A DNA stretch of 64,000 bases from Hymenobacter sp. DG25B (lineage in GTDB: Bacteria > Bacteroidota > Bacteroidia > Cytophagales > Hymenobacteraceae). Below are positions 3,395-62,275 of this stretch, one piece after another; the first letter of the stretch is position 1, and every line of letters begins with the position of its first letter. The position numbers and the translations under genes are program-made. The stretch is from contig NZ_CP010057.1 in the NCBI RefSeq assembly GCF_000801315.1, forward strand, positions 1 to 64,000. Reading direction: 5' to 3'. The notes under the pieces were generated by a model. That model had not been told where the DNA came from, searched no databases, and saw only the letters and a list, made by a program, of their open reading frames with translations.

Positions 3395-3607
3395 ATGTTG
3401 CTATATCAATTCGCGCTACTGCTCCTTTTCTCATCACCTCGGCCAGTGCCAGTGTATATATGCGAAGGGTCGGCTTCCTATGCCTATCACATTTCACCGC
3501 GCTGCGAGGGCCTGGCTTGGTGTACGCGGGCGGTAAAACCACTCACCAAGGCCGCTGCCCTGAAACTCGGCCGCCGGCCCTGTGGCCGCTGCTCATATAG
3601 AAAGTAA
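3395..3607 (+). CDS. Small secreted cysteine-rich protein
   Basis: This 70-residue protein has a hydrophobic N-terminus (LLYQFALLLLFSS) that looks like a signal peptide. A compact module follows: VYICEGSASYAYH, then CEGLAWC, then AAALKLGRRPCGRC. The arrangement (C, YH, CxGLxxC, GRxPCxxC) recurs in small Bacteroidota proteins and as a tail on some secreted nucleases. The four spaced cysteines and the histidine could bind metal or form disulfides. No function is assigned. It stands alone, with the palindromic site upstream and a convergent AlbA-domain gene downstream. Confidence 0.55.
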   Translation: MLLYQFALLLLFSSPRPVPVYICEGSASYAYHISPRCEGLAWCTRAVKPLTKAAALKLGRRPCGRCSYRK

Positions 3608-3646
3608 GCAGCCCACTGGCCAGGGTGCTGTAATGGCAGACTCTTG

Positions 3647-4776
3647 CTAACTCAGGGTATTACCCTGTCGCCAAGCCTTATACAGCACGACTACCTTGCC
3701 AATATCGAAGGGGCTGATTGTAGCGTTGTTGCCTTCCTTCTGCATCAGCTTGGCTGCGTGCCGGGCCGCGTAACCAGGTTCTGCCTCCTCAAATCGTGCT
3801 GCGTTGGCGACCAGAAACTGATTGAACTCCTGCTGCTCACGCTCGTGCTTGAAAACCAGAAATGGTGAGGTACTCCCCCTGGACTCCATCCTGCCGCGGC
3901 CTTCGGTCAGGAAAACCAGGAATCGGCCTTCGGCGGTACTCGCATCATAGTAGTAGTAACGCAATTCCCGGTCTGGCAACTCTACGTACTCAACCTCCGG
4001 GGCCGGCAGCATAAGCCGCATTTCATCGAGGTAAACGTATTGCAGCTCAAACAGCGTAGTGGCGTTCAGCTTGAAAGTAGCGTTGCCCAGAAAGGAATTC
4101 TTATTGGTAAAAAAGTAGCTGTAGGGCTCCCAGAAAGGCTTCGGGGCGGAAAACTTAATCCGGTAATCGGGAAAGTTCTGGTGGTAGGCATACCGTTTGT
4201 TGCCCAAGTCCTTGAACCACTCTTCGGGCTGGCCCAGCAAGTGCTTCATACGCTCAACCGGCAGCATATCCAGCCCGAGCCGTTGCCGCCACATTTTTTC
4301 GATGCGCAGCAAGTCAGCAGACATCCCCAGTGGGGTATTGGTGTCGCCTACCCGCGTATACACGTGGTGGGCCTTCACCTTCCTACCCCTGTCCTGGTAA
4401 TCCTGCGTTAGCCAGTAGGGCTTATGGGGATTGTCGAAAATCACCAGCACATCAATTTCCTTGCCGTCGAGCACCAGCGTTACCAGTTCAATTTCCGGCC
4501 GGATGCTGCCGGCGAAATGCTGGTTTCTGACGAAATCAATATAGTTAGCCTGGCTCTTTCGACCAGCTTCCGCTGCTTCAAGGCCGACGATGTTTGCACC
4601 CTTGGCGGGGTCATTAACGCCAAAAATCAGGTACCGCTTGCCTTGGTACAGGGAGTTAGCCAGGCAAAGCAGGTCATGCAACAAGTCGGCGTTATTGTCA
4701 TGGTGCTTGACTTTGAAGTCCCAGTATTCCCTTCACGTTTTGAGTCAATCAGCTCTTTAATAATGGCTTCCAGCAT
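3647..4776 (-). CDS. AlbA_2/Schlafen-type DNA-binding domain protein, one frame change
   Basis: Starting at 4776 the protein reads MLEAIIKELIDSKRE. After a missing base near 4730 it continues EYWDFKVKHHDNNADLLHDL, then CLANSLYQGKRYLIFGVND. The ExxxxEFK-like element followed by DLLHDLLCLANS and a GV(N/D)D turn is the AlbA_2 (Schlafen-type, divergent AAA-4) domain, here about residues 1-150. The remaining 220 residues are not recognised. Proteins with this domain are often regulators or appear in defence contexts, but the role here is unknown. The N-terminus could extend to 4893. The single indel beside GGGAA makes a sequencing error plausible. The gene is convergent with the small secreted protein and divergent from umuDC. 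Confidence 0.65.
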
Positions 4777-4976: not shown

Positions 4977-5014
4977 CACACGTTTACTTTGCGTTCCTCT
5001 TATCCTGCTGACCT

Positions 5015-5491
5015 ATGAGCGAAATAAATTTAATACGGGTCCCAGCGCCTACTCCCACCCCCTTCCTGCTGCCTTATTTCAGCTGCCTAGTACCCGCTGG
5101 CTTTCCTTCCCCAGCCAATGACCATGTCGAGGTCGGGGGCCTGTTCGACCTGAACCGGCTGCTGTTGCGGCACCCGGATGCCACGTACCTGGTGCGGGTA
5201 TCGGGCGAGAGCATGGCGGGAGCCGAAATTCATGCCGGCGACCTGCTGGCCGTGGACAAGCACCTGGAAGCGGACCACAACCACGTCGTCGTCGCGGTGG
5301 TCGAGGGCGAGGTAACCGTCAAGCGCTTGGTGCGCAAAGGCCAAATCTGGTGGCTGATGCCGGAAAATCCCGCCTACAGCCCTTACGAGATTACCGACCC
5401 GGACGGGCTACGCATCTGGGGCGTGGTGACCCACGTCGTGCACGAGCTGGTACCCGGCAAGCTGCACGCCTTACTTCATACCCGCGAATAG
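5015..5491 (+). CDS. umuD: UmuD-like S24 family protein, SOS mutagenesis
   Basis: This 158-residue protein is a self-cleaving LexA/UmuD-type (S24) protein. The serine of the catalytic dyad is in VSGESMAGA (Ser66) and the lysine in VTVKRL (Lys103). The self-cleavage site is probably the Ala-Gly bond in VPAGFPSPA (residues 28-29). There is no N-terminal DNA-binding domain, which separates it from LexA. RecA-stimulated cleavage yields UmuD', which joins UmuC to form the translesion polymerase V. The stop is two bases before the umuC start, so the two genes form an operon. Plasmid-borne umuDC homologues are well known (for example mucAB and rumAB). Confidence 0.92.
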   Translation: MSEINLIRVPAPTPTPFLLPYFSCLVPAGFPSPANDHVEVGGLFDLNRLLLRHPDATYLVRVSGESMAGAEIHAGDLLAVDKHLEADHNHVVVAVVEGEVTVKRLVRKGQIWWLMPENPAYSPYEITDPDGLRIWGVVTHVVHELVPGKLHALLHTRE

Positions 5492-5493
5492 CT

Positions 5494-6847
5494 ATGTACG
5501 GCCTATTAGATTGCAACAATTTCTACGTCAGCTGCGAACGAGTCTTCCAGCCGCGCTACGAGGGCCGGCCCGTGGTGGTGCTTTCAAATAATGACGGCAA
5601 CATCATCAGCCGCTCGGCCGAAGCCAAAGCCCTGGGCCTGAAAATGGGCGAGCCGTATTTCCAGGTTAAAGAACTGCTGAATAAACACGATGTAGCCGTT
5701 TTTTCAAGCAATTATGCCCTTTATGGGGACATGAGCCGACGGGTGATGTGGTATCTGGGCCAGACGGCACCGGCCGTGGAAGTGTATTCCATCGACGAGG
5801 CGTTCCTAGACCTGGCCGGCATGGAGAAATACCACGGCAGCCTGGACACCTTTGCCCGGAAGCTTCGGGCGGGTGTCAGGTCCCGAACGGGCATTCCGAC
5901 CTGCGTGGGGGGGCGCCCACCAAAACCCTGGCCAAGCTAGCCAACCGCATTGCCAAGAAGAACCCGGACCTCGGCGGGGTTCTTTACCTTGACAACGCCG
6001 AGCGGCGGGCCTGGGCCCTGGCGCAGGTGGAGGTGGGCGACGTGTGGGGCATCGGCCGCAGTACGCCGCCAAGCTCGCCGCGGCCGGCGTTGACACGGCC
6101 GCTGACCTGGCCCGCGTATCGGACGCATGGGCGCGCAAGAACCTGGGCGGCGTGGTGGGGGCGCGCCTGGTGCAGGAACTGCAAGGTCGTCCCTGCGCGG
6201 GGCTGCACCCTTCGGAAGATGGGACGCTGCGGCGGCAAAGCATCAGTTGCTCCCGGACCTTCGGCCGGCCTCTATCGGCCTTTGATGATGTGCTGGCGGC
6301 GGTGGCCGCGTTCCTCTCGCGGGCGGCGGAAAAGCTGCGACGGCAAAACGATATGGCCCATGTGCTGACGGTTTACATAAGTAAAAACCGCTATGCTACC
6401 AACGTGCTGCCGCCTTTCTCACGCTCTGCTACTCTCACTCTGCCGGTGGGGCCTACGGCTGATACGCGGGTTCTGCTCAACTACGCCCGCGCCCTGCTCA
6501 CCCGGTTATGGGAACCCGGCACGGTGTACTACAAGGCCGGCGTGGTGCTGGATGGATTGGAGCCGCCCGGCACTGGCCAGCAGTTATACTTATTTGGTTC
6601 ACCAGCTATTCCCGCGCAGGATGAGAACCAAAGGGGAAAAAAAGAATTTCCTTCGGAGCGGCCCGCTTTGATGGCCAGCCTCGATGCGCTGAACCAACGT
6701 TTCGGCCGTAACACCGTGCGTCTGGCCTCAGCGGTCCTATCGCCGGCGGCGGGTGGCAAGGCTGTTAGGCCACCCTGGGAGGGAAAAGCACGATGGTGCT
6801 CACCCGCATACACTACCCGGTTGGAAGATTTACTAATCGTCCGGTAG
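5494..6847 (+). CDS. umuC: UmuC-like Y-family DNA polymerase V catalytic subunit, two frame changes
   Basis: The protein begins MYGLLDCNNFYVSCERVF, the usual UmuC start with the first catalytic aspartate. SIDEAFLDL carries the second acidic pair. A base is missing in the G-run at about 5907-5913, after which the reading continues APTKTLAKLANRIAKKNPD. Another is missing near 6059 (VWGIGRQYAAKLAAAGVDTA). The helix-hairpin-helix, little-finger and C-terminal DUF4113-like part (FGRNTVRLASAV, SPAYTTRLEDLL) follow to 6847. Reconstructed length is about 450 residues (family about 420). It copies past DNA lesions with UmuD'. Both frame changes are one-base and the rest is well conserved, so sequencing error is likelier than decay. 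Confidence 0.88.
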
Positions 6848-6928
6848 CAGCGATAATGCAACCCCAGCACTGCGTGCTACTTTTAACTTCCGCCGGTTAC
6901 GCCCCTTCTCTTTCAAGCCTCATTTCCC

Positions 6929-7126
6929 ATGCAAGAAGTCGAAGTTTTCTTTATGGTTACCCGTAACGGTGGCGGTACCCGCGAGGAACGCATCAAAACC
7001 CGTGTCGATAGCTCTACGCTCAGCGCCGCCTCGGGCGAATCGGGAAGAAGAAAGCTCGATGGATGGGCCAAGCAATTCTTTCCAGCGGATAAGGAAGCAC
7101 GGGTAATCGCTATAAAGCGCCTCTAA
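6929..7126 (+). CDS. Small hypothetical protein
   Basis: A 65-residue charged protein starting MQEVEVFFMVTRNGGGTREE. It has no membrane segment, cysteines or known motif. Its stop codon overlaps the next start as TAATG at 7124-7128, which implies translational coupling with the following gene. Function unknown. Confidence 0.5.
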   Translation: MQEVEVFFMVTRNGGGTREERIKTRVDSSTLSAASGESGRRKLDGWAKQFFPADKEARVIAIKRL

Positions 7127-7601
7127 TGAGCACGACCCACGTTTTTGGCATGGCGAAGTCCAGCCTTGACCTGCTGGGCGCGAAGCGGCAGAAGCTGGAA
7201 TTAGATTGCCTGCGCTTGGTGTACGCCTGCCAGCACTACCGGGCCAACGGGTGCCAGGCCTTTGGTTACCTTGCGGTCACCTCGGCTTCAATTGGGCAAC
7301 AGGTAGAAAAATGGGCCGGAAAGTACTTGGTCCCCCCCTCTTGGTGCAACTGGTCGTGCCCATCCTCTCGGAAGTGGAGCAGCAATCGCTACTGGCGGAA
7401 AAGGGCCGGAACCGGCTGGGCAATCTAGCCAAGGCCGATGCGGCGGTCCGGCTAAAAGACGCGGATGGGTCTTTTGGCCGGGATTTGTTGGAAGCCGCTT
7501 TACACTCCTACATCCTCGAACAACACGCGGCCCTGCGGGGAAACGCGCTTAGTGGAAGTCATCCGATGGACGTTCAATGGGATTATTACGGCACTTACTG
7601 A
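7126..7601 (+). CDS. Hypothetical protein, one frame change in a C-run
   Basis: The first part (MSTTHVFGMAKSSLDLLGAK, VYACQHYRANGCQAFGYLAV) is followed, after a missing base in the C-run 7332-7338, by LLVQLVVPILSEVEQQSLLA and a helical C-terminus ending DVQWDYYGTY. The reconstructed protein is about 158 residues, mostly helical, with no recognised family. Its TGA overlaps the next start (TGATG at 7599-7603), as at its own 5' end, so the three genes from 6929 form one coupled unit. Confidence 0.5.
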
Positions 7602-7984: not shown

Positions 7985-9022
7985 ATGGCGACGACGTTAA
8001 AATTGCCCTATGGAATGCAGAACGGGCGATTGTTCCACATCACGGAGGTAGCAAATGGGTTAGCCTGTGAGTGTGTATGCCCGAGCTGCGGGGCAAAGCT
8101 GGTAGCGCGCAATCAGGGGCAGGTAAAAGCCCCTCACTTTGCACACCACCAAGCGCCCGATTGCCCTTTTGGGGTACAGACAGCTCTCCATCTGGCCGCA
8201 AAAGACATTTTCATTCAGCACCAGACCTTTTGCCTGCCGGGGGCCAGCGGAACCTTTGAATTTACGGAAGAATACTGGGCCAGCTTTGTTTTTGATGCCT
8301 CCTTTTATCAAGCGTGTATTCCCGGCGACGTAGGCGAGGAAGACCGTTACAATTTCCCGACTCGGTACGTCACCATTAAGCGCGTGTTGCTGGAGTGCCG
8401 CACCGGGGACATAATACCCGATATCATCTTGGAAACAGAGAACGGTCCACTGTTAGTAGAAATCGCTGTAACGCACTTTATCGATGAGACGAAACGCGAA
8501 AAGATTAAGCGGTTAGGCATTCCAGCCATCGAAATTGATTTAAGCAAAGTGGTGCGTGATATTACCCGGCCGCAACTGGAAGAACTGCTAATTCATCAGA
8601 CGGTCCATAAATCGTGGGCCTTCAATGCGAAGCTCGATGCGAAAATAGCCGACCGCCAAACGCGCTATTTCGAGGCTGCGCGCCCGTATTTTGAGGAAGA
8701 ATACGCGGAAGAAGTACGATACCAGCAGCAAATAGAGCAACAAGCAGCACAGGAGCAGTTCAGAAAAACACACCAGACAGCGTTCAATGAGTTGCAGCGC
8801 AAGCCCATTACCGTGAGTGAACTGCCTCATTACGGCCGCGTAGAGCAAGTATTGGCCTGTCCCTGCCCCCGCTATATACACGAAGGGCAAACCTATGCCA
8901 AGGTGCAAACGGACTGTTTTCGCTGCACGCACTTTCGGGGATATGGCATGGGTCGCCTATCCGTCATCTGTATGTATGAGTACACGAATCGTCACCAAAA
9001 AGCCCCGGCCGAACGCCGCTAA
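7985..9022 (+). CDS. CoiA-like protein with zinc finger and predicted nuclease domain
   Basis: This 345-residue protein starts with a zinc-finger-like element typical of the CoiA family: LACECVCPSCGAKLVAR, then PHFAHH and C60. A predicted PD-(D/E)XK-like core follows, with IPDIILETENGPLLVEIAVT and later KIKRLGIPAIEIDLS. The C-terminal third is a charged, glutamine-rich helical region followed by a cysteine cluster (ACPCPRY, TDCFRCTHF) that may be a second zinc site. CoiA proteins were named for competence-induced DNA processing, but relatives are common on plasmids and phages without competence genes. None are seen here, so a role in DNA processing or defence is inference. Confidence 0.7.
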   Translation: MATTLKLPYGMQNGRLFHITEVANGLACECVCPSCGAKLVARNQGQVKAPHFAHHQAPDCPFGVQTALHLAAKDIFIQHQTFCLPGASGTFEFTEEYWASFVFDASFYQACIPGDVGEEDRYNFPTRYVTIKRVLLECRTGDIIPDIILETENGPLLVEIAVTHFIDETKREKIKRLGIPAIEIDLSKVVRDITRPQLEELLIHQTVHKSWAFNAKLDAKIADRQTRYFEAARPYFEEEYAEEVRYQQQIEQQAAQEQFRKTHQTAFNELQRKPITVSELPHYGRVEQVLACPCPRYIHEGQTYAKVQTDCFRCTHFRGYGMGRLSVICMYEYTNRHQKAPAERR

Positions 9023-9094
9023 TTTTCAGCCCGTCGGTTTGGGTTTGCCACTTTCCCTCCCTTACTTACACTATCCAATCATTTACTCTTGTTT

Positions 9095-9541
9095 ATGCCT
9101 CATCCTTGTTCCCTATGCGGGCGAAACGCCACTGCTCCGGTAGACCGTACCACGGGTCTCTGCCCGACCTGTCAGCCAAAAATGCAGGAGATGCTTGCCG
9201 GATATAAGCATCGTAACCACGATGTATATCTGCCCTACCGGACGGGAGATGACATAATCTTAAAGCGGGAGGGTGACCGCCTGACAGTGAACGTACCCCG
9301 CGTGTTCACCCGGCACTCCCCGGATGGCTATGAGTGGGGCTATGCGGGAAGCGGCCCCGCAGAGCTAGCGCTCAATATCCTGCTTCTATTCGCGGACTAC
9401 GCGACTGCGAACCCCCTTTACCAAGATTTTAAACAGGAATTTATAGCGGACCTGCCCCGCACTAATGGCACCAGCACCATCAGCGCCACGCTGATTCAAG
9501 CTTGGCTGGCAATGCGTGATTCTCCTGCAGAAGTAGCGTAA
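9095..9541 (+). CDS. DUF6166 domain protein with N-terminal zinc ribbon
   Basis: The 148-residue product opens MPHPCSLCGR and later CPTC, a CxxC...CxxC zinc ribbon. The rest carries the DUF6166 pattern FTRHSPDGYEWGYAGSGPAE followed by LALNILLLF. DUF6166 proteins are small, uncharacterised and common on mobile elements. I chose the ATG at 9095 over an upstream TTG. It ends before a hairpin shared with the convergent Argonaute operon. Confidence 0.7.
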   Translation: MPHPCSLCGRNATAPVDRTTGLCPTCQPKMQEMLAGYKHRNHDVYLPYRTGDDIILKREGDRLTVNVPRVFTRHSPDGYEWGYAGSGPAELALNILLLFADYATANPLYQDFKQEFIADLPRTNGTSTISATLIQAWLAMRDSPAEVA

Positions 9542-9545
9542 TACG

Positions 9546-9598
9546 AGTATTGAGTTGATAGGCTGAATAATAACTATTCCTTGATTAAGCTCAATACT
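9546..9598. terminator. Inverted repeat between convergent genes
   Basis: AGTATTGAG (9546-9554) pairs with CTCAATACT (9590-9598) across a 35-base loop. It lies between the DUF6166 gene and the end of the leftward Argonaute operon. It could act as a weak bidirectional terminator, although the loop is long. Confidence 0.35.
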
Positions 9599-9602
9599 GT
9601 CA

Positions 9603-10286
9603 CTAGAATAAGAAAGCGGTAAAGAAACGAGGCAACAATTCCTGATTCATACCCGGTAAGCATTGCCTGTTAAACCGAAGGTAAAAGCCCCCTTCCTTAG
9701 GGACACTTTCATAAGCCAGGGTCCCGGCTTCCTGTAACAATTTAAGTTGTCTTTTTATCGTTGAATAAGCAGACTGGAAACCTTCCGGACCGATAAAGAA
9801 ACCTTGGTCGGTAAATTCCTGGTCGTCTTTGAAACCAAAAAAGGCGTCTGGAACAAGATAAAAGCCAAACCAGCGAGCGGTCGCATGTGTGACACCCAAT
9901 GCTTTGGCCGCATCATAGGCAGATGGTATTAATGCTCCGCGGTTGTGCACGTCTTCAAAATGTCCCTGATAGACCAATGTTCCTGAGCCAACGTCAACCC
10001 CTCTTTTCGCAAGCTCATCAAAACCTGATTTCGCAACCGCTGTTGATTTGCCCTCAAGCTCCGCGTAGCGGCGATTTAGCTTGGCTAAAGGCACCACTCG
10101 CAACTGCTGAGACTGATTGAGTAAATATACCAGTGACTTACCGTCCTGGCTCGTTTCCACGAACAGGTCTTCCATTCCTCCGGAACGGACGAAAGAAATG
10201 CCATTCTTAAGCAAAAAATCAGGGCTGGCGGTGGTTAGGCCAAAGAATTTGACTTTTCCCAATTTGTTGGTTGCGAATGAGCTCAT
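9603..10286 (-). CDS. Unknown third gene of the Argonaute-SIR2 operon
   Basis: From the ATG at 10286 (MSSFATNKLGKVKFFG) the product has about 227 residues; an ATG at 10316 would overlap the SIR2 gene. I recognise no family. The N-terminal half is strand-rich (ISFVRSGGMEDLFVETSQDG), with PLAKLNRRYAELEGKST in the middle. The C-terminus (YSTIKRQLKLLQEAGTLAYE, then FYLRFNR) looks like a winged helix. That shape suggests nucleic-acid binding or a regulator of the operon, but this is inference. No signal peptide or membrane helix is seen. The tight spacing behind SIR2 argues for a function shared with the defence pair. Confidence 0.6.
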   Translation of the reverse strand: MSSFATNKLGKVKFFGLTTASPDFLLKNGISFVRSGGMEDLFVETSQDGKSLVYLLNQSQQLRVVPLAKLNRRYAELEGKSTAVAKSGFDELAKRGVDVGSGTLVYQGHFEDVHNRGALIPSAYDAAKALGVTHATARWFGFYLVPDAFFGFKDDQEFTDQGFFIGPEGFQSAYSTIKRQLKLLQEAGTLAYESVPKEGGFYLRFNRQCLPGMNQELLPRFFTAFLF

Positions 10287-10305
10287 CAGGTGATGGGAAA
10301 CTATC

Positions 10306-11373
10306 TTATGATGCAAATGGAGAATCGGGCATAGGAAGAAACTGTTGAGCTAAGTATTCTTTGCTCAGCGTTTCCGCCAAGAACTTTTTGGCATCAGTCT
10401 TTTCAAATATTACTTGCTCACTATCCGGAGCTAATCCTAGTGCTTTGCGGACAGCTAGTTGCTCTTCAACCGTATTACTATACATGGTGGCCAGCACCCG
10501 CGCCTGAGAATTGTTCTTGATAGCTTGTGCGATAATGTCATTGATGTGGTCGTCGGCAAAGCTATAGCCGATGCAAACCAGAAGGCGCAAGTCTGGGGAA
10601 AAGCAATGCCGGCGGAACTCATAAATGTAGAACAGGTATGGGTCGATGGCGCGCAGCTTATTGCTGACTCCAAAAATCAGCGCGGGGTCCCGAGCAGTGT
10701 CATCGGACTGCATAAGTTTCTGGGTTGAATTGTCAATAAACCAGTCCAGAGAACCGTGCAGCTTGTATAAGGTGTAGCTTTTATCCTCATCGCGAGCAAA
10801 GTTGTTGTAGCTCCACTCGCTGGTATTTTCATCAAAACCTAGTTCGATATTATCCTTACCCACGCGCTTTTCGAAACAGAGGTCGTAGTTCAGGCTGAAA
10901 ACCTTCACGTTGAAACCTAAACCAGTAGTTCCGAATTGCAGGTTCTTGAATCCATCGTAGTACGCTGCTTCCCGATAGGCAGAAGGCTTGACCCAGTGAG
11001 TAACCAGCTCTTGGGTGATTAAATCGCGCAATTCAGTCACTCGCTGAAAGTTAGGGCCTGCTAGGTCCAGTAAGCGGTTACTCCAGGCACCAATAAACGG
11101 ATAGACTGGGTTGCGCTCCTTTTTTTCAATCTCGGCCATCACGATGAGCAGCTTCTCGATGTTGAACACCGCGTGAAAGTTGCCAAAGATGCCGTCCGCG
11201 AACTGGATGGAACTGCGCAGGTAATAGTAGAGGTCGCGGTAAGATTGCCATCGGGGGTCTTCCTCTACGAGGCGGTGTACGTTGGCCACCATCTCACCCG
11301 ACACGGGAATGCCGGCATTGGCGCTACAGCCAGCCCCCAGCAGAAATAAAACGTTGTTGCGTTCAATGCCCAT
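10306..11373 (-). CDS. SIR2 family protein, probable NAD-consuming effector of an Argonaute system
   Basis: This 355-residue protein carries the SIR2 fold used by defence NADases. The nucleotide-binding GAGCSANAGIPVSGEM is at residues 13-28, FSLNYDLCFE has Asn162 and Asp164, the likely catalytic histidine is in KLHGSLDW (His206), and CIGYSFADDHIND is near residue 285. In known SIR2-Argonaute pairs, guide-directed target recognition triggers NAD+ depletion and cell death or plasmid loss. Here SIR2 is a separate polypeptide with no APAZ region of its own. It starts three bases after the Argonaute stop, so the genes are co-transcribed. NADase activity is inferred from the family. Confidence 0.85.
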   Translation of the reverse strand: MGIERNNVLFLLGAGCSANAGIPVSGEMVANVHRLVEEDPRWQSYRDLYYYLRSSIQFADGIFGNFHAVFNIEKLLIVMAEIEKKERNPVYPFIGAWSNRLLDLAGPNFQRVTELRDLITQELVTHWVKPSAYREAAYYDGFKNLQFGTTGLGFNVKVFSLNYDLCFEKRVGKDNIELGFDENTSEWSYNNFARDEDKSYTLYKLHGSLDWFIDNSTQKLMQSDDTARDPALIFGVSNKLRAIDPYLFYIYEFRRHCFSPDLRLLVCIGYSFADDHINDIIAQAIKNNSQARVLATMYSNTVEEQLAVRKALGLAPDSEQVIFEKTDAKKFLAETLSKEYLAQQFLPMPDSPFAS

Positions 11374-11376
11374 ATG

Positions 11377-13275
11377 CTACAAAAACCAAGGGGTATCTAG
11401 GGACAACATATCCTTACGAAAATCATCGAAATCTTCGAAATAGGTACAGTAACGGGCGATTATTTCCGAGTAGTAAATGGAGATGGGTTTCACTTTCGCA
11501 TTGAAGCCTCGCCAATTCGTACCGGTCAGGTTAATGACGTCCTGTAAGTAAGGATACACCGATTCCTTCGAGGTATGTTCGGAATTCAGAAACTCGATGT
11601 GCACGGGCGGACTGATACGCTCGTTTAATACCTCTTTGCCTTCGTGAAGCCCCTCGAACCAAACCAGAAACTCGTGGGCGTTCAATTCAAGGAGCGTACT
11701 GGCATAGGGAGTTCGAGTGTTGTGCTCACTAAATCCCATAAATTTATTCTTAACATTGATTTTCAGCACCTTGAATTCAATGTTTCGGACTGTTGCAATT
11801 GCGGCCTTAATTGAGTTGATTTCCTCAAATTTGATTTTGAACGGCAGATGCAGGGCGCATTTGGTATAGCTTGCAAACTCCGGGCTGCGTAGCAAAGCCA
11901 CTAGGTTACGCTGCAACGCTTGCAGGTAAGACTCGTGAGAATGGTCGTCAGCCAGTACTTCAAGCTTGCGATAGATTCCAGAGGAGTCCAAGCATACTGA
12001 GTAAGCAAAATAACGTTCTATGGAGCCGTCAGTGCCTCTTTTATGGGCACTACCAATTCCCAATATCAAGCAGTTCGAAATGCTGGGGCGTACTACCCAC
12101 GGAATACCGCCGAGCTTGGCAAAAAGAGCCAACCCAATGTTAGAGGTAGACCATTTGAGTGTTTTTTCCACGCTGATTTTCTCGTGGCTCAACACCTGCA
12201 CCGGGATTTGCAGCCGGGTGAGGTGATATTTCAAGTAGTAATACGTCTCGGAAACCCCCTCCTCCTCGGCGTGGTTATTCTCTTCGATGAATACGGCGAT
12301 GACACTCCGGTCAGGATTATCGGTCCGAGCTTGTGCGACAGCAGCAACGGCCTGCTGTAATTCGGCTTCGCTCGTGTTTTGCAAGCGTATTTGCTGCACG
12401 TTTTCCTTGCCAATGTCTACTTGAAACATTTGCTTCATCCCTTGGAAAGTATCCGGATTTTTCTTCCCAATGAGGCTCAGAAACAGATTATTGGCGAAGT
12501 TCTTAAACCGCTCCTCCATGATAAACACGAACGTGCAGGCAGCCGGGCCTTCCTGGAAAGGACCAAAGCGCCTCACTCCGTTGAACTGGGTGTAGTCGGT
12601 ATTGCCGTTTTTAAATACAAAGAGCTTTTTCGCCAAGGCCGTGACGGGCATTGGGGTGAACTGCTGGGCTACAGTAAGCCGCGTCGTCCCCCATTGCAGG
12701 GGATTGAGAGCCGGCAGCAACTGCCCCAGCTTGGCCATACTGTAATTAAACTTATCGGCGTAGTAGTTGCGGTTAGCGGCGCCAGAACGGTCAAGGCTGA
12801 AACTGAGCTTTTGCATCTCTACATCGAGCCGTGGATGGTCACCATGGGCCCTAAATCGGGCATCGATTAAGAAGCCAAATTTCTGCGAGTGCTGAAGAAA
12901 ATACGGTTGAAACACGATTGCCCTGCGGCCTTTGGGGTAATCGTCCGTGTAGACTTCCAACGAATTATAGAACTTCTTCATTCGCACGGAATGGTCCAGA
13001 TTCAATGCTTCTACTCGCTGTGCGAGCATGGCCATAAGGATGCGTTTCGTCAAATGCAGATTATCGCTTTCCTCACACCGGAATGCTGAGAAACCTGTTT
13101 CAGGCACTAACGAAACGTAGTACGACGCATAAATCGTTGATTCCAACGCGTTGGGCAATTTGTACACCCACAGTGAGTCGTCAGTTTTGGGAGCGTCATC
13201 GTAAGGCTTCCGGTAGATAATGAAGGAAAATTGCTGTTGGGCTATCTCTAAAAAACTCAGTAGAATATCCTTCAT
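11377..13275 (-). CDS. Prokaryotic Argonaute, catalytically degenerate, without a clear PAZ domain
   Basis: From the ATG at 13275 (MKDILLSFLEIAQQQF) the protein has 632 residues. Residues 1 to about 280 resemble the N-L1-L2/APAZ region: FGFLIDARFRA, then KLFVFKNGNTDYTQF and NGVRRFGPFQEG. A MID domain follows (YYYLKYHLTRLQIPVQVLSH, NIGLALFAKLGGIPWVV), then PIWI (LILGIGSAHKRG, and near the end YLQDVINLTGTNWRGFNAK). The first catalytic Asp of PIWI is Gly in LGIGSAH, and the other DEDX positions also look lost, so target cleavage is unlikely. The size is between short and long Argonautes. An upstream extension to 13431 is open but looks non-coding. It leads the leftward operon with SIR2 and a third gene. 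Confidence 0.85.
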   Translation of the reverse strand: MKDILLSFLEIAQQQFSFIIYRKPYDDAPKTDDSLWVYKLPNALESTIYASYYVSLVPETGFSAFRCEESDNLHLTKRILMAMLAQRVEALNLDHSVRMKKFYNSLEVYTDDYPKGRRAIVFQPYFLQHSQKFGFLIDARFRAHGDHPRLDVEMQKLSFSLDRSGAANRNYYADKFNYSMAKLGQLLPALNPLQWGTTRLTVAQQFTPMPVTALAKKLFVFKNGNTDYTQFNGVRRFGPFQEGPAACTFVFIMEERFKNFANNLFLSLIGKKNPDTFQGMKQMFQVDIGKENVQQIRLQNTSEAELQQAVAAVAQARTDNPDRSVIAVFIEENNHAEEEGVSETYYYLKYHLTRLQIPVQVLSHEKISVEKTLKWSTSNIGLALFAKLGGIPWVVRPSISNCLILGIGSAHKRGTDGSIERYFAYSVCLDSSGIYRKLEVLADDHSHESYLQALQRNLVALLRSPEFASYTKCALHLPFKIKFEEINSIKAAIATVRNIEFKVLKINVKNKFMGFSEHNTRTPYASTLLELNAHEFLVWFEGLHEGKEVLNERISPPVHIEFLNSEHTSKESVYPYLQDVINLTGTNWRGFNAKVKPISIYYSEIIARYCTYFEDFDDFRKDMLSLDTPWFL

Positions 13276-13615
13276 CGAACAAGAATGGCATGGTGGGATA
13301 GCAACGAGCACGCTTGGTTCGTTGTAAGAATGGGAAAAGTACCAACAATGTAGCTTAGCCCTACTTGAGTTCACCCATGGAAGTAGTAGATAACTAAGGT
13401 TTAAAAGCGAAAAGGAGCTAATCAGATACAATACTCAGCAACTCTTAACAAAGCTCGTTACTAGCTAAATACCTTATTAATAGCAAAATAGAGTAGCGGC
13501 AGAAATACAGCCAAATCGTTTGGGGCAGACCAGCTCATAACTTCTTATCTTCGTCCTAAACTCAGCAGTTCGCTATCAGCTACCTGTTTTTCTATAGCTA
13601 ACTATACTTCCTTTT
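13276..13615. promoter_or_regulatory. Divergent promoter region between the Argonaute operon and the nuclease pair
   Basis: About 340 AT-rich bases without a gene. On the plus strand TATCTTCG at 13546-13553 resembles the Bacteroidota -7 box (TAnnTTTG) and lies about 60 bases before the start at 13616. I could not fix a leftward promoter. No strong palindrome stands out. Confidence 0.4.
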
Positions 13616-13954
13616 ATGGATTACGAAATATTTATCCGTCGAGCCCATGGATGTGGCCGTGAGCAAAAAGGTGCTTCCGTCGACTATTTTCTCAACTTGC
13701 AAAATACGGAGTCAGGAAAGCTGAAATTGTCTTATCTGGGCTCTGCTGAAAAGCAGCGAGCGGCGGTGAAGGGGTATCTAGCCAAAGCAATCCAAGCATT
13801 CATAAAACCCCGCCGAGGCCGCAAGCTCAAAGCAGAAGAAGTAGCACAGCTTGAGTCCTTGTTACCCCTTATTGAACGTAGCAGCAGCAGCAACGAGTTG
13901 CTCCCACTAATTGAGAAGGGCATAGCGATAACTCAGCCTTACAAGGAAGCTTAG
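13616..13954 (+). CDS. Hypothetical protein paired with the PD-(D/E)XK protein
   Basis: A 112-residue, probably cytosolic protein starting MDYEIFIRRAHGCGREQKGA. It has a basic middle (FIKPRRGRKLKAEEVAQLES) and a helical C-terminus (SSNELLPLIEKGIAI). No family is recognised. It ends 13 bases before the nuclease-like gene, so the two form an operon, and it could be a partner, sensor or immunity-like component. Confidence 0.5.
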   Translation: MDYEIFIRRAHGCGREQKGASVDYFLNLQNTESGKLKLSYLGSAEKQRAAVKGYLAKAIQAFIKPRRGRKLKAEEVAQLESLLPLIERSSSSNELLPLIEKGIAITQPYKEA

Positions 13955-13967
13955 GCAACGGCGCTAT

Positions 13968-15119
13968 ATGCAGAAGCAGTTACGCAAACCAGCTAACTGG
14001 CAGGACTTTGAGCGGCTCTGCAAGCAGCTCTGGGGCGAAGTTTGGCGGGTACCTTACGAAATCAAACTTAATGGCCGCGCTGGGCAGGCACAGGCCGGCG
14101 TAGATGTGTATGCCATCCCAGAGGGTGAAAATGCTTATTGGGGCATCCAGTGCAAACTCAAAGACGAGAGCACCAACGCCCAGCTAACAGAGGCAGAAAT
14201 AGCTGCCGAATTGGCTAAAGCCCGCATGTTTGAACCGCCCTTGGCCGTGCTCGTTTTGGCGACTACAGCGAACAAAGATGTAGCGCTGGAGCGAATCGTG
14301 CGGGGTGTTGATTTGGCCAGTCGCCGAGAAGGCGGGCCGAAAGTGCTGCTCTACTGCTGGGATGATATTGTCGGGTTGCTCGACCAGCACCGCCAGTCCC
14401 TTGATTGGTATTTGAATGCGCAAAAATTCAGTGACCGTTTCGATTTCGCCCTCCGCTTTGCCGATAGCAGCCAAGACCTGTTGGTGAGGCCTGAGTTCAC
14501 GCGAAGCATTAAGATTTATGAGTATCCCGCTTGGACGGGGCACCCTGCAGAACGTCCGGCCACTACCATTCTCGTGCAGGGTGAGAAGGTACGCATTGCC
14601 CCCATACCTAAACAATTGCGCAGAATACTGGATGGCTTTCAGCATTTTCAACACTTAACCCAGCTACGCAACAACCCTTTCAATGTTTCTAACTTAGCTG
14701 TGTGCCCTATTGAGTTGCATCTCACAAACACGGGTACGCGAGTGCTCGAAAACTGGAAAGTGCAGTTTGAGTTCGGGGGCGAAATAAAAGCATTAACGGA
14801 CAGCCGGGGTGATGGACTGCCCTCCCTGAGTAAGCCACGGCCTAATAAGTTTGAGCAGAATCGCTTCACCCATAAAACCATGCTTCCGCTGGTTCAGGGC
14901 GATTCCTCGGTAGTTGAAGTATTTTTACTACCGATGCCAGAGGCTGCCATCATCCCTGTTCGCTGGAAGCTTTTGGCGAGGGACTATTCCAAAGAGGGTG
15001 TATTGCAGGTGACCGTTAGGCCTCGCTATAACAACCGCTTTGAATACGAAGCTGTTGAAAACCCTGAAGCTTTACGAGAGCCCGAGATTCTATCGATAAA
15101 AGAGAGCATGGATGAATAG
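13968..15119 (+). CDS. Protein with Mrr-like PD-(D/E)XK nuclease domain at the N-terminus
   Basis: This 383-residue protein starts MQKQLRKPANWQDFERLCKQ. The core GVDVYAIPEGENAYWGIQCK gives Asp46 and Gln61-x-Lys63, the D-x(14)-QxK form of the Mrr/PD-(D/E)XK fold. The leading WQDFERLC helix is also typical. Residues 200-383 are strand-rich and unrecognised (CPIELHLTNTGTRVLENWKV), possibly an Ig-like or sensor domain. An N-terminal Mrr-like nuclease joined to an unknown C-terminal domain is a common layout for defence effectors. Its place divergent from the Argonaute operon supports a defence role, but target and trigger are unknown. Confidence 0.7.
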   Translation: MQKQLRKPANWQDFERLCKQLWGEVWRVPYEIKLNGRAGQAQAGVDVYAIPEGENAYWGIQCKLKDESTNAQLTEAEIAAELAKARMFEPPLAVLVLATTANKDVALERIVRGVDLASRREGGPKVLLYCWDDIVGLLDQHRQSLDWYLNAQKFSDRFDFALRFADSSQDLLVRPEFTRSIKIYEYPAWTGHPAERPATTILVQGEKVRIAPIPKQLRRILDGFQHFQHLTQLRNNPFNVSNLAVCPIELHLTNTGTRVLENWKVQFEFGGEIKALTDSRGDGLPSLSKPRPNKFEQNRFTHKTMLPLVQGDSSVVEVFLLPMPEAAIIPVRWKLLARDYSKEGVLQVTVRPRYNNRFEYEAVENPEALREPEILSIKESMDE

Positions 15120-21326: not shown

Positions 21327-21420
21327 TGAAAAGAAAGAACCTAAAGGGAAAACTTTCTTTTGAGCTTTCCTTTTGTTTTCCACTTGTTATCTTCGCCTAT
21401 ACTACTGCCTTCCCACCCCT

Positions 21421-22395
21421 ATGCAAGTTCTTGACAATGCGGCTACTATAGCCAATTCCACTGGCCTCGAAATCCGGCAGCACAACGCCATCACGACGGC
21501 GCGCTACGAGATGACGGCCTGCGAGATGGACATTGTGTTCTATCTGCTCTCGTTGCTGAAGAAGGAAGACCGCATCGGCACCTTCTACCGGGTGAAAGTG
21601 CTGGACCTGCAGCACCTAACGGGTCGGCAGTGGAACTACCAGCAGTTCCTGGAGGCCACTTCGGCGCTGCGAACTCGGGAATACGTGATTGAGGATAACA
21701 AGCGCATCCTGCAGGTCGGCCTGCTGGCTTCGGCCGAGTACATGAAGGGTGAGGGTGTTATTGAGTTGGAAATCTCGGAGAAGATTCGACCCTATCTTAT
21801 CGACTTAAAGCGCAACTTCACCTCGTTTCGCCTGCAGGCGGCCTTCAGCTTGAGCAGCAAGTACGCCAAGCGCATCTACCAGATTGCTTCGCAGTGGAAG
21901 GACAAGGCTGAAACCCGCACTTTCAGCCTGCACGACTTGAAGGTGATGCTGGCCCTGAAAGACCCCAAGGGGGTCGAGCCGGAGCAGTACACCAAGGTGT
22001 CCATGTTTCAGAAGTACGTGCTCGACGTGGCGGTGACTCAAATCAACCAGAATACGGACCTGCACATTGGCTACGAGCTCATCAAAAAGGGCCGCTCTTT
22101 CGAGAGTATCCGCTTTCAAATCAAGCAGCAGGAGCCTCATCAGCTGCCCCTGCCGTTTGAGCAGCCCCTGGATGACTCCCGGCTACAGATGGCGCGGCAG
22201 CGGCTGGCGGAACTCGATATCCGGGATACCCGGCTGATTGAACAGATTCTTGGCGAAGCCCGCATGGTCGATGAGCTTTTCTCCTTCTGCTACAAACTCA
22301 AAACCGGTAAGATGAAGGCTTCTACCAACCCCGGGGGCTTGTTTTTGACCGTAGTGGGACTGCGTAAAGCACAGGCTGCACCGGCCAAAAAGTAA
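21421..22395 (+). CDS. rep: Rep_3 family plasmid replication initiator
   Basis: From the ATG at 21421 (MQVLDNAATIANSTGLEIRQ) the product has 324 residues. Two winged-helix domains of the Rep_3/RepB type are indicated by HNAITTARYEMTACEMDIVF, IELEISEKIRPYLIDLKRNF and YAKRIYQIASQWKDK. Such proteins bind iterons as monomers to open the origin and repress their own gene as dimers. Nine iterons lie directly upstream, and TATCTTCG at 21388-21395 is a plausible -7 box. An upstream in-frame extension to 21373 is less likely. This gene and its iterons are the strongest evidence that the window is plasmid DNA. Confidence 0.93.
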   Translation: MQVLDNAATIANSTGLEIRQHNAITTARYEMTACEMDIVFYLLSLLKKEDRIGTFYRVKVLDLQHLTGRQWNYQQFLEATSALRTREYVIEDNKRILQVGLLASAEYMKGEGVIELEISEKIRPYLIDLKRNFTSFRLQAAFSLSSKYAKRIYQIASQWKDKAETRTFSLHDLKVMLALKDPKGVEPEQYTKVSMFQKYVLDVAVTQINQNTDLHIGYELIKKGRSFESIRFQIKQQEPHQLPLPFEQPLDDSRLQMARQRLAELDIRDTRLIEQILGEARMVDELFSFCYKLKTGKMKASTNPGGLFLTVVGLRKAQAAPAKK

Positions 22396-30275: not shown

Positions 30276-31187
30276 TTACTGCGGAGTGGCTTCGGTGCCG
30301 GGGACTTCCTCCGCTTCGTAGCTGGGCACGATGCCCAGAATGTGGTTGGCGGCTTTCTGGCCTTGGCTGGCGGCGGAAATTATCAGCTGTTTGTCGTTGC
30401 GCAGGGCTTGCAGCCAGTTGGCGATATAGCTGGCACTGCTGGGCTCGGTGCGGGTCAGGTCCAACCCGGCCGCGTGGCTCAGGAACGAGGCCCCCAACTC
30501 GGCCACCAGCTCCTCCTTGGCGTAGGTTTCACTGCCAAAGGCGGCTAATTCGGTGAGCGTGGCCCGGTCCAGCCGCTTGGCGTGGCCGGTGGAGTGGGTC
30601 AGCTCGTGAAACAGGGTGTGGTAATAGTCTTCGGCCGTGTGGAAGTTGCTGGCCTCGGGCATGGTCACCGTGTCGACGCTGGTGCGGTACATGGCTTCGC
30701 TGCCCTTGTGCAGCACCCGGGGGCCACCCGCGTAGCCGGCCAGCACCTGCTCGGCGGCCTGCTCGGGCGTGTGCTCGCGGCTGGGCAGCTCGGGGAACGT
30801 CCACGCCACGCCGTCAATCTGGGCCACGTTGAACACCGTGGAGTATTTCAAAAACGCCTTTTTCTTCTCTTCGCCCTTGCCGTCGTCCTTCTTGGTCACG
30901 GTGAAGAACACCACCGGCATGCCCTTCTCGCCCCGGCGCACCTGCCCGCCCAGCTCCTTGGCTTGGTTGTAGGTCAGGAAATACGGGTGCTCATACTCCA
31001 GCATCCCCAGCAGCAGGGCATTCACGCCCTGATACACGTGCTTGCTGCGGTAGTTGCGGGGCGCGCCGTGGGCGGCATTCCACGGCTGCTTCCACGGGGT
31101 CACGCCGTTCTCCAACGCCAGAATAATGCGGTTGGTGATGATTTCGTATACGTCGGGGCGGGGAGCGAAAGGAGCGGGCTTTTTCAT
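30276..31187 (-). CDS. ardC: ArdC-type antirestriction / ssDNA-binding protein with zincin domain
   Basis: This 303-residue protein has the ArdC N-terminal domain (DVYEIITNRIILALENGVTP, WKQPWNAAHGAPRNYRSKHV), which binds single-stranded DNA. A C-terminal metallopeptidase-like zincin domain has HELTHSTGH at residues 194-202 (His194, Glu195, His198) and the downstream EELVAELGASFL. In plasmid RP4 and relatives ArdC protects incoming DNA from restriction during conjugative entry. Its place near the mobilisation genes and behind the shared promoter repeat fits an early-entry function. The peptidase activity is predicted, not shown. Confidence 0.9.
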   Translation of the reverse strand: MKKPAPFAPRPDVYEIITNRIILALENGVTPWKQPWNAAHGAPRNYRSKHVYQGVNALLLGMLEYEHPYFLTYNQAKELGGQVRRGEKGMPVVFFTVTKKDDGKGEEKKKAFLKYSTVFNVAQIDGVAWTFPELPSREHTPEQAAEQVLAGYAGGPRVLHKGSEAMYRTSVDTVTMPEASNFHTAEDYYHTLFHELTHSTGHAKRLDRATLTELAAFGSETYAKEELVAELGASFLSHAAGLDLTRTEPSSASYIANWLQALRNDKQLIISAASQGQKAANHILGIVPSYEAEEVPGTEATPQ

Positions 31188-60130: not shown

Positions 60131-62140
60131 CTATTTCTCCGTTTTCTCCTTGATGAGGTGCCGTAGCGTGGGGTCTTGCCCGATGCGCAGCAACTCCCGG
60201 GCACACAGCTCCTTCACTTCGGTTTTCACGCGGTTGAAATTGGCTTTAATCATCTCTTCGGCCTCGTCCTTGCCCGTCGCCGGGTTAATAAAGCTGGTAA
60301 TGTCGGGAATGGGCTGGTAGGCCTGGGCCTCGGCGGCCACCGCCTTCACGTCCACCTGAATCCGGGCGTGAAACACCTTCTGGTCGATTTCCTCGCCGAA
60401 GTTGTCGGCCACCGCGCCCACGAAGTTGCCCTGGGTGAGGTTGGCAATGGTGCTGGCCGGAATCATGCTATCCATCTGAGTCGAAAGGCTGGTGCTGGTT
60501 TCGCGCATATTGATGCTCAGACTCTGGCGCTGCTGCAGAATTTTGCCGAACCGCTCGCTCAGCCACTTGCCGCTGTTGCCCGACACCTGCCCGCTGAACA
60601 CGTTGCCCACGGTGTTCTTAATGACTTCGGCCTCCTTCTGGCCGTAGTCGCGCTCCAGCTGCGAGAAGTCCTGAAAGCCCAGGCAGGTGCTCACTTTGTT
60701 ACTGCGGGCCGTGGCAATGAGGTTGTCCAGCCCCTTAAAGTAGATGGTGGGCAGCTCGTCGATGATGATGGACGATTTACGCTTGCCCTTCTGGTTCACC
60801 AGCTTCACTAGCCGGGCATTGTAGAGGCCCAGCGCTGCCCCGTAAATGGCCTGGCGCTCGGGGTTGTTGCCCACGCACAAGACCTTGGGCTCCTCGTTGC
60901 TGTTGATGTCAAGCGTGAAATCGTTGCCCGACATCACCCAGTAGAGCTGTGGCGAGGCCAGCCGGCCCAGCGGAATCCGCGCCGAAGCAATCTGGCCTTC
61001 CAGCTGCTCAATGGCATCTTTCTGGAACGCCGACACGAACGGCTTTACCAGATTCTCAATCTCGGGGTACGAGGCCAGCACCGGGAAAATCTCTTCGTAG
61101 TCGCGGCTCAGAAACTCGATGACATGGGGAAAGGTGCAGTATTTACCCTTCTCAAACAGCTTCAAAAACCAAATAATGGCCGCCACAAAGTTGATGGGCG
61201 ACTCCACGAAAAAGTCGCCCTGCTTCTGAATCCAGCTCTTGTTGAGGTTGAGCATGATGGTAGAGGCGCTCTCGTAGGCGTCCACGATGTCGGTCATCAG
61301 CTCGGGCAGCAGCGGGTTGCAGCGGTGACTCTTGCGAGGATTGTCGAAGTTGATGACGTAGAAGCCCACGGGCTTATCAAACTTGTCCTGGTGGCGCAGC
61401 AGCGTGTTGTAGCAGATGCGGCTCAAATCGTCAAACTTGTAGTCGTAGATGTACATGCAGAAGCCCTTGGCCAAGTGCTGCCGGATGAACTCGTTGATAA
61501 TGGCGAACGACTTGCCCGAGCCCGGCGTGCCCAGCACCATGGTAGCTCGAAACGGATTCACCACGTTCAGCCAGCCGTGGTGCTTCTTGCCGCGCAGCTG
61601 GTACTCGGTGCGCAGGTTCACCGAGTACTCGTTTTCCATCAGCCGCTCCTCCTGCGGGAAGCTTTCGTTGGCCTTGTTAAAGATGTCCTTCATCAGGTCG
61701 TTGTTAAACAACCTACTCAGCCAGGCCCCGGCGCTCAGCAGCAGCAGAAAGCCCGCCGACAGCAGCCCGGTATATAGCGCCGTTGTTAGCCCGGCCCCCA
61801 GCGCGAAGCTGCGCACGATATCCGACCCGTAAATCAGCGCCAACCCGATGACCGCGTAACCCACCACCGAAGCCCCTTTGAGCTTTTCATTGGCCCGCCC
61901 CCGCGTGCCGAGGCAGCTCAGCAGCAGGAACACCACAGATAGCGTCTTACTCACCCAGCTGGCCTTAAACAGGAAGGTATTTTTGGTAAAGCTCTCCAGA
62001 ACATGCTCGACCACGGCCGGTGTCCAGCCCATGCTTTTGAAGTAGCCGAAGCAGTAATAGTAGATGTTAATGCCCATCAGCACAATGGCAAACAGGCGCA
62101 TAAACTCCATGATTTTCCGTAACCCTTTCTCGTCTTCCAT
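60131..62140 (-). CDS. traG: VirD4/TraG-type coupling protein
   Basis: From the ATG at 62140 (MEDEKGLRKIMEFMRLFAIV) the product has 669 residues. It has about four N-terminal membrane helices, then the Walker A loop VLGTPGSGKSFAIINEFIRQ (about residue 203) and Walker B SSIIIDELPTIYFKGLDNL (about 458). VSTCLGFQDFSQLERDYGQK is typical of TraG/TraD-like ATPases. It carries the relaxase-DNA complex to a type IV secretion channel supplied elsewhere. Its last 54 codons are repeated at 58342. It is part of a leftward mobC-mobA-virD4 operon, separated from mobA by 135 bases. Confidence 0.92.
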   Translation of the reverse strand: MEDEKGLRKIMEFMRLFAIVLMGINIYYYCFGYFKSMGWTPAVVEHVLESFTKNTFLFKASWVSKTLSVVFLLLSCLGTRGRANEKLKGASVVGYAVIGLALIYGSDIVRSFALGAGLTTALYTGLLSAGFLLLLSAGAWLSRLFNNDLMKDIFNKANESFPQEERLMENEYSVNLRTEYQLRGKKHHGWLNVVNPFRATMVLGTPGSGKSFAIINEFIRQHLAKGFCMYIYDYKFDDLSRICYNTLLRHQDKFDKPVGFYVINFDNPRKSHRCNPLLPELMTDIVDAYESASTIMLNLNKSWIQKQGDFFVESPINFVAAIIWFLKLFEKGKYCTFPHVIEFLSRDYEEIFPVLASYPEIENLVKPFVSAFQKDAIEQLEGQIASARIPLGRLASPQLYWVMSGNDFTLDINSNEEPKVLCVGNNPERQAIYGAALGLYNARLVKLVNQKGKRKSSIIIDELPTIYFKGLDNLIATARSNKVSTCLGFQDFSQLERDYGQKEAEVIKNTVGNVFSGQVSGNSGKWLSERFGKILQQRQSLSINMRETSTSLSTQMDSMIPASTIANLTQGNFVGAVADNFGEEIDQKVFHARIQVDVKAVAAEAQAYQPIPDITSFINPATGKDEAEEMIKANFNRVKTEVKELCARELLRIGQDPTLRHLIKEKTEK

Positions 62141-62275
62141 CGCTTGAAACGCTTGGTGAATCAAGCAACTTACCCCCGCCGGCAACGCCCGACGCGGATT
62201 ATTTGACGAGCGGTTCAAAGTCAGCGGTGAGGTGCAAATCGGCCACACGAACCAAACCACTCCCCCGCCCAGAAC

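Follow-up and report, generated by a model that had tools for sequence, protein, structure and literature searches.

A long-B prokaryotic Argonaute (pAgo) paired with a separate Sir2 protein has been published under the name BPAS (PMC10620215), and single-chain long-B Argonautes (Agos) with a reduced or lost PAZ domain and a Sir2-like gene directly downstream have been described as well (PMC10954474). In GbBPAS the Ago and its partner AgaS co-purify as a complex, the Ago suppresses the toxicity of AgaS, and the pair together with a trigger plasmid leads to depletion of NAD+ (PMC10620215). We analyzed the first 64,000 nucleotides (nt) of contig NZ_CP010057.1 from Hymenobacter sp. DG25B, hereafter the window, in which an Ago gene is followed by a SIR2 gene and a third gene. 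The Ago-SIR2 pair adds a member to BPAS, in an arrangement already published, and very probably constitutes an abortive-infection module of this type (long-B pAgo plus Sir2) on a Hymenobacter plasmid, belonging to a PAZ-less single-chain branch.

All three genes lie on the minus strand and their frames are intact at the coordinates at which they were first noted. The Ago frame (11377..13275, 632 amino acids (aa)) opens with an ATG at 13275 and its stop ends at 11377. An alternative upstream TTG would give a protein of 684 aa, and we took the ATG as the start because the PADLOC profile alignment begins at residue 1 and two Hymenobacter plasmid relatives share this methionine. The SIR2 frame (10306..11373, 355 aa) starts 3 nt past the Ago stop, and the third gene runs from 9603 to 10286 if read from an ATG (227 aa) or to 10316 if read from a TTG (237 aa), the latter start overlapping the SIR2 stop.

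The window Ago is a single chain with the order N-L1-L2-MID-PIWI, in which PAZ has shrunk to a stub. It matches the PADLOC pAgo_II profile PDLC02381 over its whole length (793.7 bits, 1-617/617) and the Pfam Piwi family at 40.2 bits, over the curated cut-off. In a MAFFT alignment read at the four columns that we take to be catalytic in TtAgo, the D/E/D/D set is absent from the window protein and from 18/18 aligned family members, TtAgo in the same alignment displaying D, E, D and D, and the PIWI domain is apparently catalytically inactive. The MID pocket is kept, with Y345, K349 and Q360 present in 42/42 rows and K374 in 39/42. YK is the usual long-B MID motif (PMC6299218), and the retained residues fit a predicted YK-type binding of the guide 5′-phosphate.

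Between the PAZ bounds that we assume for TtAgo, the window Ago has 23 residues compared with 94 in TtAgo itself. An AlphaFold2 model of residues 1-632, built from a 42-row alignment, is confident (mean predicted local distance difference test score (pLDDT) 91.6, predicted template modeling score (pTM) 0.88) and places a six-residue helix (152-157) alone between the strand 132-143 and the helix 171-190. As modeled, this single helix resembles the one-helix PAZ remnant described for some long-B proteins (PMC10954474). When the model was searched with Foldseek, five RsAgo entries took ranks 1-5 and AfAgo came at rank 10 with a root-mean-square deviation of 3.7. An earlier note on this DNA, made from the sequence alone, had seen a 632-residue Ago whose PIWI lacks the catalytic acids, followed three bases later by a SIR2 protein without APAZ, and had offered a long-B-like pAgo without a clear PAZ as one way to read it; the frames and the alignment agree with the first two observations, and the model, the fold search and the tree described next bear out the third.

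In a tree of MID-PIWI regions with 53 rows, the window Ago and its relatives (19 rows) form one clade with a starred support of 100. Their closest neighbors are L039 (locus handles of this kind are ours), a 759-aa protein with a SIR2 partner, then L041 and L042, also with SIR2, and six more Bacteroidota proteins (99, starred). The family and the EcAgo-like proteins together stand apart from 7 short pAgos (99, starred) and from 4 long-A rows. L040 is called EcAgo-like for its PDB scores (EcAgo 415 bits, RsAgo 302), and the label was extended to L153 and L154 as presumed relatives of it. Searched against the PDB, a nine-member family profile ranked EcAgo (99.2 bits), AfAgo (92.8) and RsAgo (59.7) ahead of the next entry at 33.7. 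By the tree, the PDB ranking, Foldseek and the PADLOC Class II assignment, the window Ago belongs with the long-B Argonautes. The clade is spread over Bacteroidota, Bacillota, Chloroflexota, Acidobacteriota, a cyanobacterial plasmid and one archaeal metagenome-assembled genome, among others; viral contigs yielded one distant relative and nothing else.

The PAZ stretch spans 94-105 residues in three EcAgo-like proteins and L039 (105 in the latter), 61 in L041, 53 in L140 and 22-23 in the window family, and the Ago frame of L042 has 426 aa. Sequence comparison suggests that PAZ may have been lost stepwise among SIR2-linked long-B Agos (L039/L118, L041, L042).

The partner protein, a predicted NADase effector without APAZ, is of the SIR2_2 type. 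It matches the PADLOC Aga_SIR2 profile PDLC02408 at 446.3 bits over positions 2-343/343, compared with ∼20 bits for the Class I SIR2-PNTD models, and the Pfam family SIR2_2 at 47.4 bits, over the curated cut-off. The GAGxS and NYD motifs occur in 68/68 family SIR2 frames, as does HG[STCA], the stricter form [LV]HG[ST] being found in 58/68. Judged from the motif, N162 of the window SIR2 probably corresponds to N155 tested in GbbAgaS.

The two genes are kept together with hardly an exception. A search of 84,980 species genomes that started from an alignment yielded 78 loci. Once the seven most distant had been set aside and seven others added, there were 78 candidates (L026, L028, L034-L038 and L049-L119), and removal of 8 with identical Ago ends left 70, the window excluded; a scan of genome contigs with a single protein as query found no loci. 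In 69/70 of these distinct relatives a SIR2 gene lies directly downstream of the Ago gene, the intergenic distance ranging from -50 to +19 nt; in the 70th the Ago frame runs off the contig. The 70 include the 759-aa sister type (L118) and four partial or interrupted Ago frames (L076, L111, L115 and L119), and the seven most distant scan loci (L120-L126), none with a SIR2 match, were kept out of the family. Pairwise distances of Ago and of SIR2 are correlated (r = 0.892, 63 pairs), a value as high being reached in 0/2000 permutations. So nearly exceptionless an intact pair offers a clean target for asking how a PAZ-less Argonaute controls an NADase.

Compared with published systems, the window pair shares with GbBPAS and BPAS in general (PMC10620215) a small one-strand operon in which the gene of an inactive long-B pAgo immediately precedes that of a separate Sir2_2 protein: the PIWI is inactive, the Sir2_2 gene follows after 3 nt, the pocket is of YK type and the Ago falls in the long-B clade. 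The BPAS long-B pAgos were, however, introduced as four-domain proteins (PMC10620215), whereas the window Ago, with PAZ reduced to a stub, falls outside the four-domain long pAgos, which have PAZ, and the window holds an extra, non-conserved third gene. The stub does not bar the protein from BPAS, since PAZ loss among long-B pAgos has already been described. EbAgo of Epilithonimonas bovis is a single-chain long-B protein shown with PAZ reduction (PMC10954474), and L055, from E. bovis DSM 19482, encodes an Ago with 42% identity to the window Ago over the full length and a SIR2 gene 12 nt downstream; L055 was matched to EbAgo (WP_076783222.1) by organism, not by sequence, and unlike the window it has Eco57I-type restriction-modification (R-M) genes directly upstream. 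The fold of the window Ago is common to RsAgo and to fAfAgo, the AfAgo-N/AfAgo heterodimer described as the equivalent of a PAZ-less long-B pAgo (PMC10954474), although AfAgo comes in two chains and the window Ago in one, and RsAgo differs from the window Ago in possessing PAZ and in the partner encoded downstream. Both window proteins match the whole of their profiles in PADLOC Argonaute Class II (PDLC02381, PDLC02408) with no difference seen, a profile name being no functional test.

The earlier note had held that the pieces are divided unlike those of known systems, and here the published BPAS (PMC10620215), the PAZ-less single-chain long-B Agos (PMC10954474) and the full-length PADLOC matches all speak otherwise. 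A PAZ domain is not predicted, only the stub, but the Ago does fall in long-B beside a described type of SIR2 partner and the third gene is not conserved; the arrangement is therefore ordinary in substance, and what looked like an odd division is how a widespread long-B branch is normally arranged.

By analogy with the characterized relatives, the module most probably works as follows. The Ago would load a short 5′-phosphorylated guide in the MID pocket (RNA in the characterized inactive pAgos) and, thus guided, would base-pair with invading DNA but leave it uncut. Pairing of guide and target would free the bound SIR2 from inhibition, and the freed SIR2 would degrade NAD+, halting the cell and thereby the invader. 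The RNA guide, the DNA target, the inhibition and release of SIR2 and the depletion of NAD+ would all follow the pattern of those relatives. Three points weigh against a BPAS-type module. The types of guide and target, complex formation and NADase activity are carried over from published relatives and are to that extent presumptive. The likeness to GbBPAS follows its published description rather than a sequence comparison. Finally, the node joining the family to long-B has a Shimodaira-Hasegawa-like approximate likelihood ratio (SH-aLRT) of 89, unstarred, from a quick tree search. The phylogeny that the earlier note had proposed places the family with long-B, apart from the short and long-A rows, through this node.

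The third gene might make this a three-gene system, in which an extra component, for example a winged-helix regulator or sensor, controls or aids the Ago-SIR2 pair. The gene is on the same strand and overlaps or closely trails the SIR2 stop, and helix-turn-helix regulators are mentioned near long-B operons (PMC10620215). Its structural model (pLDDT 80.9, pTM 0.79) has a C-terminal half in the winged-helix-like order helix-helix-hairpin-helix-wing, and among its weak Foldseek matches are CodY, regulators of the ArsR family and replication initiators; from the model, the protein is perhaps DNA-binding with a winged-helix C terminus. Relatives of the gene can adjoin defense genes, one of them (L044) beginning 39 nt downstream of an Eco57I-type R-M gene, and a further relative is located near a Rep3 initiator. 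The Foldseek search gave no match at E <= 0.001, however, and neither Pfam nor PADLOC nor NCBIfam has a match at E <= 1. A third-gene profile found no match at the other family Ago loci at E <= 1e-3, flanks being incomplete at some of them, and the gene was not found at the two closest Hymenobacter plasmid relatives of the pair. A three-member profile detected relatives in 6/204 genomes of the host family, the host included, all from the host genus, and none of the others stands beside an Ago found here. In 395 genomes of the phylum a single-protein query returned the gene's own copy and one partial match, and there was no relative in plasmids at E <= 0.01 and none in viral contigs. A functional third component thus appears improbable, and the gene is most likely a genus-level plasmid gene, a neighbor outside the mechanism. 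The extra component suggested in the earlier note is not supported: the survey of homologous loci for all three genes showed Ago and SIR2 kept together, with no match to the third gene at the other family loci within the available flanks.

R-M genes are a recurrent feature of the surroundings of the pair. Counted over 70 loci, here with the window included and near-copies taken out by hand, they occur within the available flanks near 24/70, on the Ago strand in 23, and the remaining 46/70, the window among them, show no match. The type I order hsdM-hsdS-Ago-SIR2-...-hsdR is found in L104, L100, L082, L074 and L107. Other R-M neighbors, identified with Pfam on representatives, are of Eco57I type, MmeI type and type III, and Pfam adds type ISP (L037), NgoPII (L062), BrxL (L066) and Eco57I-like (L090) neighbors, these scans covering chosen proteins. 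The partner type switches 22 times on a 65-row tree of Ago frames of at least 550 aa (L118 left out, the partner label of L114 borrowed from its near-copy L090). The near-identical Agos of L051 and L062 have an Eco57I-type and an NgoPII partner, respectively, which would fit a recent swap of either the pair or its R-M gene.

One might therefore see Ago-SIR2 as a back-up coupled to R-M, carried in R-M operons and triggered when R-M acts or fails, the window copy descending from such an arrangement. In the window, a 112-aa gene (13616..13954, plus strand) divergent from the Ago gene, with no Pfam match, is related to frames of L026 and L049 (70.5% and 71.4% identity over 112 residues), which on these two Hymenobacter plasmids are flanked by an MmeI-type R-M gene on one side and the Ago gene on the other. 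A control set of other pAgos nevertheless has R-M genes at 8/27 loci, 5 of them same-strand, and the family does not differ significantly from it (Fisher p = 0.81 and 0.21), even though the R-M search models were built from the family's own loci, which biases the count toward the family. On this control, R-M coupling was not upheld as a trait special to the clade. The 46 loci lacking a match count further against such a back-up, and we regard it as quite unlikely. That pAgos in general are associated with R-M and other defense genes has been in print since 2009 (PMC2743648), and PMC6299218 lists HsdS and type III restriction groups among the pAgo-operon proteins; we found no account of Ago-SIR2 within R-M operons in the literature searched, the excerpted text of PMC7641849 included, which is weak evidence of absence.

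A broader form of this idea, also improbable, is that PAZ-less Ago-SIR2 pairs are portable R-M back-ups that enter R-M and BREX operons of several types, swap partners often and kill by NAD+ loss once R-M acts on an invader or fails to stop it, the window copy with its turned-round 112-aa gene being a detached descendant. In such a role the pair would be comparable to PrrC within type I loci. The recurrent siting in varied R-M operons raises a testable question about the coupling of two defenses, with the control showing no excess.

Inside the type I operons of L104, L100, L082, L074, L107, L110 and others the pair in several cases comes directly after hsdS, and in most hsdR is further downstream. 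At L115 (Entotheonella) the Ago gene also stands directly after hsdS and is split (3573-4475 and 5956-7065) by ∼1.5 kb bearing an opposite-strand frame of 459 aa.

A short-pAgo (SPARSA) system with rearranged SIR2 and APAZ parts is the least likely reading and highly improbable: the window shares with SPARSA a SIR2 effector, an inactive PIWI and the lack of PAZ, but in SPARSA SIR2 is fused to APAZ beside a MID-PIWI-only short-clade Ago, whereas here N-L1-L2 are in the Ago chain, SIR2_2 stands alone without APAZ and scores for Aga_SIR2 Class II, and the Ago is apart from the 7 short rows in the tree and the PDB profile. An intermediate between short and long pAgos, the other option of the earlier note, was likewise ruled out by the tree, the profile ranking and the PADLOC class.

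As for the setting of the BPAS-type pair, the contig measures 131,151 bp and, judged from its genes, is most likely a plasmid, because genes for a Rep3 initiator (21373-22395) and for a conjugative coupling protein (60131-62260) lie on it, as does, along with the Ago-SIR2 pair, an anti-restriction gene of ArdC type (30276-31187, minus strand). A matching locus is also present on the Hymenobacter monticola plasmid NZ_CP094537.1. Windows of 1 kb that start at 8000-14500 have a G+C content of 0.45-0.53, as opposed to 0.57-0.68 for those at 5000-7000 and from 15000 onward, a dip around the operon as expected of an acquired cassette. Promoter and terminator scans near the operon gave no more hits than in shuffles, and a Bacteroidota-type promoter pattern had zero matches in the window. 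The models from the family loci detected no R-M gene there; a 383-aa gene (13968-15119, plus strand), likewise divergent from the Ago gene, has a Mrr_cat_2 match just under the cut-off (20.8 vs 22 bits). The 112-aa gene faces away from the Ago gene, and this weakly matching gene comes next.

Two other loci have features of their own. In L076 (Anoxybacillus) the Ago gene is split (1231-2052 and 6007-7275) by ∼4 kb of DNA in which, judging the translations by eye, there are seemingly transposase-like, metal-ATPase-like and ArsR-like frames. On a plasmid of H. qilianensis (L027), a TIR-domain gene (9412-10140) lies 437 nt past SIR2.

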